From Desmonostoc muscorum LEGE 12446 (GTDB taxonomy: Bacteria > Cyanobacteriota > Cyanobacteriia > Cyanobacteriales > Nostocaceae), in assembly GCF_015207005.2 (NCBI RefSeq), contig NZ_JADEXS020000001.1:6223001-6287000 (forward strand): a stretch of 64,000 nt of DNA, written 5' to 3'. Shown one piece after another: positions 48,004 through 53,618 of the stretch. Both the position numbers and the translations under genes were made by a program. The notes beneath the pieces were generated by a model. It was given only the letters and a program-made list of their open reading frames with translations. It was not told where the DNA came from and did no database searches. How positions within the stretch are numbered: the stretch's first letter is position 1; every line of letters starts with the position of its first letter.

Positions 48004-48693
48004 ATGGCAACAACAGCATTGATAGTGGGAGCAGGTAGTGGACTAAGTGCCTCTTTAGCCCGGTTATTTGCGAAAGAAGGAATAAGTGTCGCTCTAGCTG
48101 CTCGGCAAATTGAGAAACTCACCCAGCTAACTAGTGAAATTGGGGCGGTGAGTTTCGCCGCTGATGCCTCAAAACCAGATGAAGTGGAACAGTTATTTAT
48201 TGATGTTGAAAATCAGCTAGGTTCCCCAAATATTGTGATTTATAACCCTAGTTTCCGCGTGCGGGGACCTTTGGTTGAGCTAGATCCCGCTGGGGTGGCA
48301 AAAACTCTAGAAGTGACTGCCTATGGTGGCTTTCTGGTTGCCCAAGCTGCTGCCAAACGGATGTTGCAGCATGGAGGTGGTGCGATCTTCTTTACAGGAG
48401 CCTCAGCAAGTGTTAAGGGTTTTCCTCAGTCTGCTCCTTTTGCAATGGGTAAATTTGCACTGCGCGGTTTAGCTCAGAGTATTGCTAGGGAATTAGCACC
48501 AAAGAATATTCATGTGGCACATTTCATAATTGATGGTGTAATTCGTTCAGCAGTTCGCCCAGATCCAGTGGATAATACTGATAGTACTCTCGATCCGGAT
48601 GCGATCGCTCAAACTTATCTCAATATCCTCCGCCAACCCCGCAGTGCTTGGACATGGGAAGTAGAACTACGTCCGTGGGTAGAGAACTTCTAG
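48004..48693 (+). CDS. SDR-family protein lacking the catalytic tyrosine
   Basis: A 229-residue protein with a clear Rossmann start (MATTALIVGAGSGLSASLAR) and FFTGASASVKGFP. The position of the YxxxK pair reads FAMGKFALRG, with F for Y. The usual NNAG is YNPS. The C-terminal half (HIIDG-type IIDGVIRSAVRPDP) fits a small SDR subgroup that I recall with FxxxK. It may be a binding or chaperone-like member, or use another acid. Second SDR of the redox row; AGGAAAATTAAAATC precedes the ATG. Confidence 0.82.
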   Translation: MATTALIVGAGSGLSASLARLFAKEGISVALAARQIEKLTQLTSEIGAVSFAADASKPDEVEQLFIDVENQLGSPNIVIYNPSFRVRGPLVELDPAGVAKTLEVTAYGGFLVAQAAAKRMLQHGGGAIFFTGASASVKGFPQSAPFAMGKFALRGLAQSIARELAPKNIHVAHFIIDGVIRSAVRPDPVDNTDSTLDPDAIAQTYLNILRQPRSAWTWEVELRPWVENF

Positions 48694-48727
48694 CCAAGAT
48701 AATTGTTACAAGAATATTTTTGAACGT

Positions 48728-49498
48728 ATGAAAATTGATTTTGGTGCAACTGCTGTTGACTATGCAAAACACCGCGCTGGTTTTCCCAGTTCATTATTTA
48801 ATAAACTGTCCGAATATGGTATAGGTTTACCAGGACAAAACATTGTTGACCTGGGCACAGGAACGGGAACACTAGCGCGGGGTTTTGCAGATAGGGGTGC
48901 TTATGTGATTGGTATCGACCCATCAGTGTCACTTCTAGAACAAGCCAGACAGTTAAGTGAATCTGCCCAAATCAAAGTAGATTATCGAGTTGCAACTGCC
49001 GAAAATACTGAGTTACCAGATGCCAGTGCTGATGTGGTCACTGCTGGACAGTGTTGGCATTGGTTTGACCGTGGGCGTGCTGTCAAAGAAATTACTCGGA
49101 TATTGAGAGCGAATGGCACAATTGCGATCGCTCATTTTGATTGGATACCTTTAAAGGGTAATGTCGTTGAAGCAACAGAACAACTGATTAAGGCTCATAA
49201 TCCAGCGTGGAATCTGGCCGGCGGTAATGGATTGTATCCTCTGTGGTTACAAGATATTGGAGAAGGAGGATTTCGGGATATCCGCACATTTTCTTACGAT
49301 GTATTTGTATCTTATACACATGAAGATTGGCGGGGGCGAATTCGTGCTAGTGCGGGTGTGGGAGCCAGTTTAACACCAGAAAAGGTGGAAGTATTTGACC
49401 GAGAATTGGCGGTGTTACTGGAAGCAAAATATCCCACACCAATCCTGCAAGTTCATCATCGAGTGTGGGCGGCGATCGCTAAATCACCACAGCCATAG
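48728..49498 (+). CDS. Class I SAM-dependent methyltransferase
   Basis: A 256-residue methyltransferase. The SAM-binding motif I is IVDLGTGTGTLARGFADRG, followed by VIGIDPSVSLLEQAR and TAENTELPDASADVVTAGQC. It belongs to the UbiE/Coq5-like fold, with the unusual motif CWHWFDRGRAVKEITRIL seen in many small-molecule methyltransferases. It starts 35 bp after the SDR gene and so is probably in the same transcript. The substrate is unknown. Confidence 0.88.
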   Translation: MKIDFGATAVDYAKHRAGFPSSLFNKLSEYGIGLPGQNIVDLGTGTGTLARGFADRGAYVIGIDPSVSLLEQARQLSESAQIKVDYRVATAENTELPDASADVVTAGQCWHWFDRGRAVKEITRILRANGTIAIAHFDWIPLKGNVVEATEQLIKAHNPAWNLAGGNGLYPLWLQDIGEGGFRDIRTFSYDVFVSYTHEDWRGRIRASAGVGASLTPEKVEVFDRELAVLLEAKYPTPILQVHHRVWAAIAKSPQP

Positions 49499-49575
49499 TA
49501 ATAATCGCAACTTACATAGTCAAATATGGTCAGAATTCACGGTAAAACATAAATATCCTCATTCAAGAAGTAACC

Positions 49576-50631
49576 GTGACTGTCCAGCTATCCCAACCTG
49601 ACTTCCAGCGCCTGACGCGTATTGTACAGAATTTACCTGATTTTGCTAATGTGCGCGATCGCCGTCGTTTAGTCGCAGGCGCATTAGAAGGTGTCCCCCA
49701 AGCAGATACCATCCTGGCGCGTTTAGATTTAGATGGTTCACCAATGGGTGTTTCTGTAGAAGTTGTGCGCTTTTTAGCCCAGTTTGGCCGGGTTGCTTAT
49801 GATAAGGAAGCCCTTGCTGTCTTCCTCAACATCATTCAGGGTTTCACTGGGGATGAAGATCGAGATTTTATCCTTGAGTTATTTCAAAAATATCCCCTGA
49901 ACGTTCCAGCCAGCCCCAACCGTGGAATCGATAATTGGAAGGGGATGGATAGTGTAGCTGATGTCAAAGAAAGAATTATTGGTGAGAATACATTACGCGA
50001 TATTTACATATTAAACTTGGCTTTGGAAGCATCAAAAGCCGTCGTTCATATAGCAACTCAAACTGGTTTGGGTACAGGTTTTATGATTGCACCTGATTTA
50101 CTAATGACGAATAATCATGTCATTGATAGTCGGGAAGTAGCAGAAAAAAGTAATTTTAGCTTCAACTACCAATTGGATATTAACGGTAAAGAATGTCCAA
50201 AACAAACTATTGGAGCTTTAAAAGGAGGTACTTTTTACACTAACGAAGAACTCGACTATACAGTAGTAAATCTGAAAGACTTACCTGATTTTGGCAAACC
50301 CTTAATCTTACAAAAAAAGTTGATGCGACGAGATGATCGCGTAGCAATAATTCAACATCCTAGCGGTCGTGTGAAGAAAATTTCCATCCAGAATAACTTT
50401 GTTGCTTACGCCGACAATCAAGTATTACAATACACTACAAGTACAGAACCCGGTTCATCGGGATCGCCTGTTTTCGATGATGATTTTCATGTAGTTGGTA
50501 TTCACCATAGTGGAGGAACGTTAATCGAACCAAATACGCAACGAAGGTATTTACGCAATGGAGGAACAAGTGCGATCGCCATATTAAATGACTTAAAAAA
50601 TAACGCACCAGAAATTTACGCACGATTATAA
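49576..50631 (+). CDS. Adaptor-domain (EAD-like) trypsin-type serine protease
   Basis: A 351-residue protein with GTG start. Residues 1-110 form a helical adaptor (FQRLTRIVQNLPDFANVRDR, MGVSVEVVRFLAQFGRVA, EALAVFLNIIQGFTGDEDRD) of the effector-associated-domain kind. Residues 140-345 are a chymotrypsin-fold protease with full triad: H181 in TNNHVID, D227 in EELDYTVV and S295 in GSSGSP. There is no signal peptide, so it is cytoplasmic. It is followed 11 bp later by a second gene, and then a third, whose N-termini align with this adaptor. A conflict or cell-death type protease activated by like-with-like domain contact is inferred. Confidence 0.85.
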   Translation: MTVQLSQPDFQRLTRIVQNLPDFANVRDRRRLVAGALEGVPQADTILARLDLDGSPMGVSVEVVRFLAQFGRVAYDKEALAVFLNIIQGFTGDEDRDFILELFQKYPLNVPASPNRGIDNWKGMDSVADVKERIIGENTLRDIYILNLALEASKAVVHIATQTGLGTGFMIAPDLLMTNNHVIDSREVAEKSNFSFNYQLDINGKECPKQTIGALKGGTFYTNEELDYTVVNLKDLPDFGKPLILQKKLMRRDDRVAIIQHPSGRVKKISIQNNFVAYADNQVLQYTTSTEPGSSGSPVFDDDFHVVGIHHSGGTLIEPNTQRRYLRNGGTSAIAILNDLKNNAPEIYARL

Positions 50632-50642
50632 GATTAATTTAG

Positions 50643-51536
50643 ATGGCACAAATCAGTGGGGAAATTATCCAAGAATTATCGCGTGTGTTGCAACCATTTA
50701 TGTGGGATAAACAACAACGTCGGTCTTATCTTGTTATAGCCTTAGGAACTAATGCAAATGTATTGAATCGTTTGATGTGGGATACGCCCGTTGAAGTTTT
50801 TATTCCCCAAACGATCGACGAACTCGTAGCATTTGGAGAAATTACACCTGGCAAACCTGCACTTTGTAGTTTATTGGAAGTCATACGTGAAACTGTAGGA
50901 CTAGATAATCAGCAAAAAATTGATAATTTGCTGCGAAAGATTACAGAAGAACTGACAAAAAAACAAAATCAAATCCCCAAAATTTACTCCCATGCGTTGG
51001 ATGCATATTTTACCGTCACCCTAGATAGACTAAGAAAACAAGGTTGCTTGGATATTCGCAAAAATATTACTTATGCTAATGGTCAATTAAATTACGTTGC
51101 TAAAATTTCAGATTTTGAGTTACCCTTTGGCATTTTTAGTATGCGTGGAGAAGCATTCTTTTTGTTTTCTGAGTTTGCTGAAATAAATATAAAAATATTG
51201 CAGCGATTTGCTTCTCAATGCACTGATTGGGCTAAAAAGGAAGCTAACCCATCTGCACTGGGTCAAGCAATATATAACTTTAGAGCACCTGCTCACCTTT
51301 GTTTTGCAGTTGCTCTTGTTGACACAGTTGATGAAACAACAGCATCTAAAGTGCAGACTACTAATGCTTTAGACCATAATTTAGACTTGTTATGGTATGA
51401 AGTCCCCGTAATTTATGAACTTAGCCGCAAACAGCTTTATTTTTACGATAAACCATCTAATTTTTTGGAGAATTTTAAAAGCGAAGTAGTCTGGAAAAAG
51501 TTACGTCCCATTGTTAAAGATATACTACCTGGATAA
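50643..51536 (+). CDS. Adaptor-domain (EAD-like) protein with unknown C-terminal domain
   Basis: A 297-residue protein. Residues 1-105 (IIQELSRVLQPFMWDKQQRR, VFIPQTIDELVAFGEITPGK, PALCSLLEVIRETVGLDNQQ) are close to the N-terminus of the next gene, about half identical by eye, and more distantly like the protease adaptor upstream. Residues 115-297 are an alpha/beta region (YAKISDFELPFGI-like VAKISDFELPFGIFSMRGEA, LCFAVALVDTVDETTASKVQ, LDLLWYEVPVIYELSRKQLY) that I cannot assign. It could be the sensor or a second effector. It lies between protease and WD40 genes with gaps of 11 and 31 bp, so one operon is likely. Confidence 0.75.
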   Translation: MAQISGEIIQELSRVLQPFMWDKQQRRSYLVIALGTNANVLNRLMWDTPVEVFIPQTIDELVAFGEITPGKPALCSLLEVIRETVGLDNQQKIDNLLRKITEELTKKQNQIPKIYSHALDAYFTVTLDRLRKQGCLDIRKNITYANGQLNYVAKISDFELPFGIFSMRGEAFFLFSEFAEINIKILQRFASQCTDWAKKEANPSALGQAIYNFRAPAHLCFAVALVDTVDETTASKVQTTNALDHNLDLLWYEVPVIYELSRKQLYFYDKPSNFLENFKSEVVWKKLRPIVKDILPG

Positions 51537-51567
51537 ATTTTATTCTTTATTTAAAAAGAATTAAGCT

Positions 51568-52902
51568 ATGGCAATAAACAGCGAATTAATCCAAAAAATA
51601 TTACCCATACTTAGACCATTGATGGAAAATGAAAGCCAGCGTCGGGGGTATTTAATCAGAGCATTGGGGACAGATACGCCTGTGCAGTATGGTCTAAATT
51701 TCAACACACCCACGAATGAGTTTATTCCTAATTTGGTAAATGAATTAGTCAGCTTTGGAGAAATTGCGCTTGGTCAACCTGCACTTTGCGCGTTGCTTGA
51801 GGTGATTCGTCAGGATGTAGGCGAAGATATTCAGATCAAAATAGATAATTTACTCCCAGAAATTAAAAGAGAATGTACTGAATCCAAAAAATCAGTAGAT
51901 AATCTAGATAATCGCTACAAAAATACAAAAATCCTCAGCGGACATTCAGATTCTGTTTTGTGTGTTGCTATTAGCCGAGATGGAAAAATGCTTGCTAGTG
52001 GCGATGGCGATGTCTACGACGGGCTACGCCTACGCACGATAAAATTATGGAACTTGACCACTGGAGAATTGCTAACTAATTTAACTGGACATTCTAGCCC
52101 AGTTCTTTCTATTGACTTTAGTCCAGATGGACAAACTCTAGCAAGTGCCAGCAATATGGAATTTCAGGATGGAAATATCAAGTTGTGGGATATACGCACA
52201 GGTAGAGTTAAACAAACTTTAGGCAGTTCTTTAGTTTCCTTGCGAACTAGTTGCGTCGCCTTTAGCCCCGATGGAGAAACTCTAGCTACTGGACATTTTG
52301 ACGCTGCTATTAGACTTTGGCATCCCATTAGTGGAAAAGAGATACGCACTTTAAGAGGGCATGGATGGGATGTCAATTCTCTTACCTTTAGTCCAGATGG
52401 ACGGTTTTTAGTGAGCGGTGGAATTGATGGCGCAATTATGATTTGGAATTGGCGCAATGGAGAGAGAATACGTACACTAAATCGCCCTTCCGACTTTTTT
52501 GGTTCGATGGTGTCTTGGTTCGACCGTTCAGTAGGGTCAATTCGCTCAGTTGCTATTAGTCCTGATGGACAAACCATTGCCAGTGGAGGTAGTAGTGCCG
52601 GTGATAATGGTGTTTCTAATCCACCAATAAAGCTGTGGAATACAAGTACTGGAAGAGAAGAGCGTATTTTTACTGGTCACACAGATTCGGTGAATGCGAT
52701 CGCATTTAGTCCGACTGAAAAAATTATTGCCAGCGGAGGTGAAGATAATACAATCCAAATTTGGAATTATCAAACAGGAGAACTCATACAGACTCTTGAG
52801 CTTAAAAGTCCTGTAAATTGTCTTGCTTTCAGTCCCCGCGACAAAATTCTAGTTAGTGGTGGTGGTGATTCCAAAATTAGGATTTGGACTCTATCTTCCT
52901 AA
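51568..52902 (+). CDS. Adaptor-domain (EAD-like) WD40 propeller protein
   Basis: A 444-residue protein. Residues 1-105 are the shared adaptor (LIQKILPILRPLMENESQRR, EFIPNLVNELVSFGEIALGQ, PALCALLEVIRQDVGEDIQI). A short linker leads to seven WD40 blades (about 123-444), each with SPDG and LW-type ends, giving a complete propeller. Such propellers sense or scaffold in cyanobacterial effector systems. Blade 1 carries about nine extra residues (DVYDGLRLR) from a dispersed repeat. Third gene of the cassette, 31 bp after the second. No NTPase core is seen nearby, unlike most related systems. Confidence 0.85.
   Translation: MAINSELIQKILPILRPLMENESQRRGYLIRALGTDTPVQYGLNFNTPTNEFIPNLVNELVSFGEIALGQPALCALLEVIRQDVGEDIQIKIDNLLPEIKRECTESKKSVDNLDNRYKNTKILSGHSDSVLCVAISRDGKMLASGDGDVYDGLRLRTIKLWNLTTGELLTNLTGHSSPVLSIDFSPDGQTLASASNMEFQDGNIKLWDIRTGRVKQTLGSSLVSLRTSCVAFSPDGETLATGHFDAAIRLWHPISGKEIRTLRGHGWDVNSLTFSPDGRFLVSGGIDGAIMIWNWRNGERIRTLNRPSDFFGSMVSWFDRSVGSIRSVAISPDGQTIASGGSSAGDNGVSNPPIKLWNTSTGREERIFTGHTDSVNAIAFSPTEKIIASGGEDNTIQIWNYQTGELIQTLELKSPVNCLAFSPRDKILVSGGGDSKIRIWTLSS
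52007..52035. repeat. 29-bp dispersed palindromic repeat inside the WD40 gene
   Basis: Identical to the intergenic copy at 4141-4169. It lengthens the loop before the last strand of blade 1 without breaking the frame. Confidence 0.9.
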
Positions 52903-52913
52903 AAAAGTACGAA

Positions 52914-53618
52914 CTAGAGAGCTAGTCCAGCTTGTGTAGCTTCGGGAATTTCAATCAATTCCCCAGTTTTGACATCGTAGAGGTAGCCATAAATCGGAAT
53001 TTCTGGGGGTACTAATGGGTGAGAGCGAATCCGTTTCACATCTGCATAGACACTTTGTGCTTGTTCGCCGATAGTCAACCAATCAATGAACTCAGCTTCG
53101 CTCGATCCTCCTCCAGAATCAACATCATGCCAACCCGTCTCGTCTATCTTCGCGGTTTTGAGACTATTAGCCAGTAAATTCCGGATAACTTGGTCTGTGA
53201 AGGTTTCCATACCACAATTTGTGTGATGAATCACCAACCACTCACGAGTACCAAGTAATTTGTAGGAGATTACTAAAGAGCGGATTGCATCATCACTCGC
53301 GCGGCCACCTGCATTACGAATCACATGGGCGTCTCCTTCAACCAACCCCAATACAGTTCAGTTAAGGCTAAAACTCTTGGTCAAATTCAATTTTTTTAAC
53401 GAACCGCCAAGGACGCAAAGGACGCAAAGAGAAGAAAGAAAGGCTTAACTGAACTGTATTGCAACCAACCCAGCAAATTTTGCTGGATCAAGTCGAGCAT
53501 CCATGCAGGTGAGAATCGCAAATCGACGAGCAGGCGGTATGGTAAGGTCACCTTTATCACCGAAATTTTCAACGTAGGCGCGGTTCGCTGATAGAACTTC
53601 TTCTAAAATTTGACTCAT
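52914..53618 (-). pseudogene. Beta-carbonic anhydrase, split by a miniature transposon
   Basis: The intact N-terminal part (53618 to 53462) reads [20 protein letters not shown] and [10 protein letters not shown], including the first zinc ligand Cys and the Asp-Arg pair, up to KFAGLV. An element of 113 bp with a 10-bp target duplication follows, and translation stops within it (AIQFS then stop). The C-terminal part (53351 to 52914) resumes [19 protein letters not shown] and IHHTNCGM, with the other zinc ligands His and Cys. Removing one duplication and the element restores the frame. Neither half has all zinc ligands. Beta-CA hydrates CO2; other CA genes presumably cover the function. Confidence 0.92.
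53349..53461. mobile_element. 113-bp MITE with target-site duplication
   Basis: Inverted ends CAATACAGTTCAGTTAAG are perfect over 18 bp. The direct duplication CAACCAACCC flanks it (53339-53348 and 53462-53471). The core contains AAGGACGCAAAGGACGCAAAG. No frame is present, so it needs a transposase from elsewhere. Confidence 0.95.

Follow-up and report, generated by a model that had tools for sequence, protein, structure and literature searches.

The window analysed here is a stretch of 64,000 nucleotides from the cyanobacterium Desmonostoc muscorum LEGE 12446 (contig NZ_JADEXS020000001.1, positions 6,223,001 to 6,287,000). It carries on its plus strand three genes in tandem, called the trio below, which encode a trypsin-like protease, a protein whose C-terminal domain is unannotated and is named X, and a WD40 propeller. 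All three proteins begin with the same effector-associated domain (EAD), EAD8. The genes are separated by 11 bp (genes 1 and 2) and 31 bp (genes 2 and 3), and the tandem arrangement given in an initial annotation of this DNA is borne out by the coordinates of the open reading frames (ORFs). The whole cassette is small (3.3 kb) and intact, with the following features:

49576..50631, plus strand: gene 1, EAD8-protease, 351 aa, GTG start (ORF; PF19961 and PF13365)
49594..49893, plus strand: EAD8 of the protease, residues 7-106 (PF19961, E 2.7e-22, 79.7 bits)
50071..50502, plus strand: Trypsin_2 domain, residues 166-309, with H181, D227 and S295 (PF13365, E 7.4e-24; letters of the triad)
50643..51536, plus strand: gene 2, EAD8-X, 297 aa (ORF; Pfam)
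50661..50942, plus strand: EAD8 of gene 2, residues 7-100 (PF19961, E 2e-23, 83.3 bits)
50972..51569, plus strand: 598 bp (X and intergenic DNA), absent from G570, a genome of the same species (DNA comparison)
50979..51533, plus strand: domain X, residues 113-297, unannotated (no family match; conservation; model and structure comparison)
51568..52902, plus strand: gene 3, EAD8-WD40, 444 aa (ORF; Pfam)
51583..51861, plus strand: EAD8 of gene 3, residues 6-98 (PF19961, E 2.1e-23, 83.3 bits)
51913..52899, plus strand: WD40 propeller, seven repeats, about residues 116-444 (PF00400, 7 stretches)

The Pfam profile PF19961 (EAD8), whose gathering cut-off is 27 bits, was found in the three proteins with the scores given above. 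The shared domain is not a chance resemblance, since all three proteins far exceed the cut-off of one and the same profile. The common N-terminus, which had been proposed to be an effector-associated domain, can therefore be named, and the three regions do not fall in unrelated folds. The N-termini of proteins 2 and 3 had been described as roughly half identical over about 105 residues, which agrees with BLASTP (44% identity over 135 residues, E 4e-31) and with the 53% identity of their EAD8 domains. That of the protease is of the same kind, as had been said, although pairwise similarity is weak (best E 0.008 with gene 2 and 2.1 with gene 3) and the relation is visible through the profile alone. 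The complete triad and the seven blades are also confirmed: the letters H181, D227 and S295 are in place and, together with the PF13365 match, make gene 1 a trypsin-like (S1 fold) peptidase, and gene 3 has its seven PF00400 stretches. The identification of the protease with a named defence protein was rejected, its PADLOC matches (best RT-Protease_XI, E 6.4e-13) spanning the trypsin domain only.

In the 9.6-Mb assembly, PF19961 gives eight matches: the three of the trio, four at C1:8.519-8.526 Mb and one at 0.907 Mb. The four-match cluster (L009, minus strand) lies about 2.24 Mb from the trio and encodes EAD8-NACHT, EAD8-protease, an EAD8 protein of 864 aa, EAD8-iSTAND, a MoxR-like ATPase (so named by sequence and place, not by Pfam), a vWA protein and a linker-REC-HTH protein (LuxR-type). 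This layout is that of the iSTAND/MoxR/vWA ternary systems with EAD-coupled effectors (PMC7159879, PMC8195603). EAD8 is among the adaptors that recruit effectors in such systems, further copies being expected elsewhere in the genome (PMC7159879, PMC8195603). The linker is equated here with vWA-L, a name taken from PMC8195603, on the basis of its place beside vWA and of 34% identity in two examples. As in EAD-coupled systems, the genome has a further copy of EAD8 on a core component, the EAD8-iSTAND protein beside MoxR and vWA. The L009 protease is 86% identical to gene 1 and the EAD8 domains of the two are 88% alike, while EAD8 of gene 2 is closer to that of the 864-aa protein (64%) than to that of gene 3.

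The MoxR, vWA and third component that define a ternary system are absent from the trio locus, and no relative of the L009 MoxR, vWA, linker, iSTAND or NACHT parts was found among 253 stop-to-stop segments of at least 60 aa in the 64-kb window. The earlier claim that no NTPase core is local thus stands for the window, but not for the genome, which has both the EAD8-iSTAND/MoxR/vWA core and EAD8-NACHT, nor for other genomes, where the EAD8-protease adjoins EAD8-NTPase genes. Since a core of the L009 type occurs elsewhere in the genome and none in the window, the core missing at the trio is most likely that of L009.

The 864-aa protein of L009 looks Hsp70/actin-like by eye, Pfam naming EAD8 only. 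At the eighth match (L010:3574-4584, G000:C1 near 0.907 Mb), as in G558 (L068:6627-7634), EAD8 is joined to some 230 aa that have no annotation, and a protein of about 1100 aa, which in L010 has pentapeptide-like repeats (by eye), is encoded downstream. Six protease-linked EAD8 domains (window, L009, L019, L052, L053 and L054) share 63-88% identity with one another but only 17-31% with the remaining EAD8 copies in the comparison, and form a separate, slowly changing subtype. The EAD8 tree, in which 8 of the 21 inner branches are open and long branches meet, was set aside for branching claims.

The three genes do co-occur in other genomes. Nostoc calcicola (L017) has them in the same order after the same upstream genes, with different downstream genes; the DNA is 96% identical to the window over the first 3638 bases compared and all three frames are intact. 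In Symploca SIO1C2 (L019), the trio is found with intervening genes, in the order EAD8-protease, EAD8-X, a 326-aa ORF, an EAD8 protein (247 aa), EAD8-WD40 and EAD8-TIR. Another locus of the same metagenome-assembled genome (L018) encodes iSTAND, MoxR and vWA with a single gene of 899 aa made of vWA-L, EAD8, X and WD40, that is, a direct fusion of an EAD-linked domain to core parts. Other loci combine some of these parts with components of a core: EAD8-protease, EAD8-unknown, a WD40 fragment, EAD8-X, EAD8-iSTAND and a MoxR fragment in G635; EAD8-protease, EAD8-WD40, EAD8-iSTAND, MoxR, vWA and a linker gene divided between two frames, one after another, in G436; EAD8-protease, EAD8-iSTAND, MoxR, vWA and linker in G467.

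EAD8 and iSTAND were counted in two draws of 148 genomes each, the listed parts of which agree. EAD8 is present in 13 of the 148 genomes (36 matches). iSTAND was found in 7 of these 13, against 26 of the 135 without EAD8 (Fisher p 0.009, uncorrected for kinship and genome size). An EAD8 protein that also bears iSTAND, NACHT, NB-ARC or nSTAND1 occurs in ten of the 13, LEGE 12446 included, if one counts G030, whose NTPase match is below the Pfam cut-off, and G443, whose EAD8 match is borderline; the partner domains of G440 and G452 come from phmmer against the L009 proteins and, for G452, also from the iSTAND draw. Going by these domain matches, a core is usual beside EAD8 and not universal.

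EAD8 and the linker were also seen in other company. In G467, EAD8 is fused to a phycobilisome-protein domain, an unusual partner (L054:10985-12028; PF00502, E 1.3e-5), upstream of the EAD8-protease and of the iSTAND/MoxR/vWA core. In G436, a single gene combines a GGDEF domain with a caspase and two copies of EAD8 (L077:6107-7936), and another fuses the effector-arm linker to the CRISPR-associated family Cas_APE2256 (L053:4792-6489). In G438, EAD8 is fused to Csx3, a CRISPR-associated family (L080:3164-4126).

The trio site appears to differ from one close relative to the next, as is often the case for defence loci. The DNA of G570, from the same species, matches the window at 98% up to 50971 and resumes at 51570 with zero bases between. 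Both X and the boundary between the two genes are missing there and, the frame being preserved, the result is a 543-aa open frame EAD8-EAD8-WD40 (L041:4158-5789). At this locus, G566 has EAD8-protease and EAD8-WD40 alone, and one more EAD8 protein is encoded elsewhere in its genome. The middle gene of G278 consists of its first 36 codons continued in frame from residue 199, residues 37-198 (most of EAD8 and half of X) being lost and 135 aa remaining, and the third gene ends after residue 83, close to the contig end. In G568, which has no EAD8 match, the same flanking genes enclose two small ORFs (L062:2328-3169), one of them an HNH endonuclease.

Domain X, as a member of a known family, was ruled out by database searches. 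Nothing in Pfam, PADLOC or NCBIfam (E<=1) or in PHROGs (E<=0.1) matches the X part of gene 2; the whole of gene 2 has no Pfam family besides EAD8 at E<=10, hence no metallo-beta-lactamase (MBL) match either; and no relative was found among PDB sequences, the five hits all having E 0.52 or worse. A model and its comparison with known structures suggest an alpha-beta, putatively restriction endonuclease (REase)-like domain. The third strand of X reads R-G-[ED]-A-F-F, position 172 being F in 97% and I in 3% (weighted; 59 sequences), and the K of the (D/E)xK motif occurs on this strand in 0 of the 59. A standard PD-(D/E)XK nuclease was therefore rejected, the catalytic motif being absent. Also rejected were a kinship with the C-terminal region of the EAD8 protein P0019 from Nostoc sp. 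S4 (0.4 on the 0-100 Prob scale of hhalign), X as a phage gene (82 candidate stretches in viral contigs, none confirmed) and X as a plasmid gene (two plasmid records matched, their best places lying over the EAD8 part only).

Relatives of the gene 2 protein amount to 34 hits by a first search and 37 by a second one with alignment, partly overlapping. X is present in at least 5 of 386 sampled cyanobacterial genomes and in at least 9 of 217 genomes of the family (two of the nine with an internal stop). These counts include partial matches and may be low because few candidates were scored per genome (at most 8 and 15, respectively). In a collection of 84,980 species, a scan relying on exact short peptide patterns gave X at 16 loci, every one titled cyanobacteria, which correspond to 15 separate places (L026 and L028 are the same place). 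Besides EAD8-X, the architectures include EAD10-X (P0007, P0009-P0012), Trypsin_2-X (P0013, P0014, P0016), GUN4-X (P0057) and EAD8-X-phosphorylase (P0038); found behind EAD8 and EAD10 alike, X therefore spans both adaptor classes. Four proteins have X on the effector-arm linker, namely linker-X (P0020), linker-EAD8-X-WD40 (L018), linker-phosphorylase-EAD8-X (L028) and, in L025, linker, a STAND-like NTPase below the Pfam cut-off, TPR, EAD8 and X. At 6 of the 15 places (L018, L022, L024, L025, L026/L028 and L027), the stretch examined also contains MoxR, vWA or linker genes; at the other nine, none of them was found in it. In L021, EAD10-NACHT genes flank the X gene on either side, and a caspase gene lies 5-6 kb from X in L022 and L023.

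The position of X on the linker (the vWA-L effector arm) suggests an effector or payload, and its direct fusion to a protease suggests a regulator. The middle protein had initially been taken for a new sensor or a second effector. The presence of X on the effector arm in four proteins speaks for an effector, but its REase-like model lacks the catalytic motif, and the gene 2 protein is neither clearly a sensor nor clearly an effector.

Because all three proteins bear EAD8, the genome has a distal EAD8 core and relatives have the same parts beside or fused to a core, the trio is probably an accessory cassette of an EAD8-coupled conflict system, likely a counter-phage one. The EAD-coupling logic of such systems was predicted previously (PMC7159879, PMC8195603). 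EAD8, a helical domain with a possible Death-fold resemblance, would bind other EAD8 copies, and these contacts would bring the protease, the X protein and the propeller together and join them to the core. The propeller could recognise a signal or scaffold the complex. Elsewhere, such a propeller forms the C-terminus of nSTAND1-WD40 receptors whose genes adjoin that of the EAD8-protease: in G443 and G438, the neighbouring gene combines nSTAND1 and WD40 with a match to EAD8, of 38.8 bits in G438 and, borderline, of 26.8 bits alone in G443. The gene 3 protein looks like such a receptor without the NTPase, and APAF-1, in which cytochrome c is sensed by WD40 repeats, was named as a parallel in PMC7159879. 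Clustering would license the trypsin-like protease, which would cut a cell target or a component of the system. X could be a payload or regulator brought to that complex as well; it would most likely derive from the REase-like fold and bind nucleic acid or a ligand, and not be a standard PD-(D/E)XK nuclease. The expected outcome would be dormancy or death of the infected cell, which would give the trio a role in defence or death; the abortive-infection or programmed-death module proposed at first would be of this kind.

Several observations weigh against this accessory role. EAD8 occurs without an EAD8-tagged NTPase in 3 of the 13 genomes: G389 has EAD8-protease and EAD8-FGE with no other EAD8 match, G392 has EAD8-X only, and G396 has an EAD8-phosphorylase and an EAD8-TIR adjoining VMAP-C and MoxR. 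In G570, EAD8 is found at the trio locus only (3 matches, two genes) and the one iSTAND protein gives no EAD8 match; in G278, EAD8 is likewise confined to the damaged copy of the locus. N. calcicola G558 keeps the trio without any iSTAND match; of its two further EAD8 proteins, one is an EAD8-trypsin next to MoxR-vWA-linker genes and the other is related to a 336-aa protein. The structural matches are near the noise level stated by the comparison tool.

Some of these genomes favour an autonomous, NTPase-free unit, in which EAD8-protease and EAD8-propeller would be a two-part sensor-executioner with X as an optional third part, the WD40 protein being an EAD8-nSTAND1-WD40 receptor that lost its NTPase. 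G570 keeps EAD8-protease and EAD8-EAD8-WD40 as its sole EAD8 genes, G566 has a similar pair at the locus, G389 combines EAD8-protease with EAD8-FGE, and the receptors of G443 and G438 lie beside the EAD8-protease. However, such autonomy is rather unlikely: an EAD8-tagged protein of NTPase type is present in most of the EAD8 genomes (10 of the 13, LEGE 12446 among them), proteins missed by the PF19961 profile may mediate the action of a core, and G570 could be what is left after the loss of its core. The loss of X in G570, the truncated genes of G278 and the HNH pair at the site in the EAD8-less G568 would also fit a decaying or neutral orphan, that is, a duplicated fragment of a core locus without current function. 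This is very improbable, the three frames being intact here and in N. calcicola, G570 remaining in frame across the loss and the triad being kept.

Two further proposals concern X. It is conceivable, though less likely, that X acts on the protease as its sensor or regulator and is no payload, being a non-catalytic REase-fold domain that would bind metal, nucleotide or nucleic acid and control proteolysis, like the N-terminal domain of YqgP, a manganese sensor for a rhomboid protease (6r0j; PMC7231995). Direct fusion to a protease supports this model, and X and the YqgP domain share the order of alpha/beta elements, coupling to a protease and, putatively for X, the REase-like fold. However, X also sits on the vWA-L arm, the YqgP match is marginal, no sequence similarity was detected, the protease is of another class, and the YqgP metal residue (Asp50, before helix 2) is apparently not kept, as by element order it falls in a variable loop of X. 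The trio could also be an ATPase-free relative of the apoptosome, in which WD40 sensor and protease would meet via a Death-fold-like adaptor with a portable X as payload. X would then move as a unit between EAD8 (trypsin) and EAD10 (NACHT/caspase neighbourhood) systems, be cleanly gained or lost within a species and have its own pocket on the restriction-endonuclease fold; taken together, this is quite unlikely.

The accessory cassette can be compared with several known systems. As in the EAD-coupled iSTAND/MoxR/vWA ternary systems (PMC7159879, PMC8195603), which have EAD8 both on a component of the core and on effectors, whether these are encoded in the operon or elsewhere in the genome, a trypsin partner and a vWA-L effector arm, the genome has such a core, but the trio is remote from it, has no NTPase and carries X. 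EAD8-nSTAND1 systems, e.g., Thiohalocapsa DGR 6 (PMC10907252), also have EAD8 on a sensor and on a trypsin-like protein, with a STAND NTPase and an FGE sensor diversified by a diversity-generating retroelement (DGR) instead of a bare WD40 propeller and X. The CARD-NLR systems such as LypABC (PMC13236601) have a Death-fold domain on a trypsin-like protease, to which EAD8 may correspond; there, the peptidase is required for lysis and another operon protein adds a nuclease-like domain. Their operon includes ATPase domains, whereas no NLR-type ATPase was found in the trio operon by ORFs, Pfam and window search, and EAD8 is a different family by name. Hachiman and AVAST have MBL pro-nucleases that are protease-activated (PMC12799240), which recalls a trypsin-like protease beside a possible nuclease-fold partner, but theirs is an MBL hydrolase, whereas X has neither an MBL match nor a standard PD-(D/E)XK motif.

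As for the surroundings of the trio, a methyltransferase-like gene precedes it, no promoter-like site was found on the plus strand from 48600 to 49576 (scan total 10 vs 12.1 in shuffled sequence), and a dispersed repeat of about 113 bp (53349-53461) has many copies on other contigs of relatives.

This kind of system is already published. X was not found in the available portions of PMC7159879 or PMC8195603, whose supplementary tables might list it under another name. What looks new is X itself, its presence behind two adaptor classes, the effector-arm fusion of X and WD40 in Symploca and the same-species form without X; the absence of a motor protein near the trio also seems new. No experiment on an EAD8 system was noticed in the literature searched. 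Death-domain signalling is predicted to have its bacterial counterpart in EAD-coupled systems, and this locus offers a natural comparison with and without X within one species, as well as a relative in which genes 2 and 3 are fused on the effector arm. Two questions can thereby be put to the test: if an EAD8 cassette is able to fire in the absence of an NTPase, and what the role of X is.

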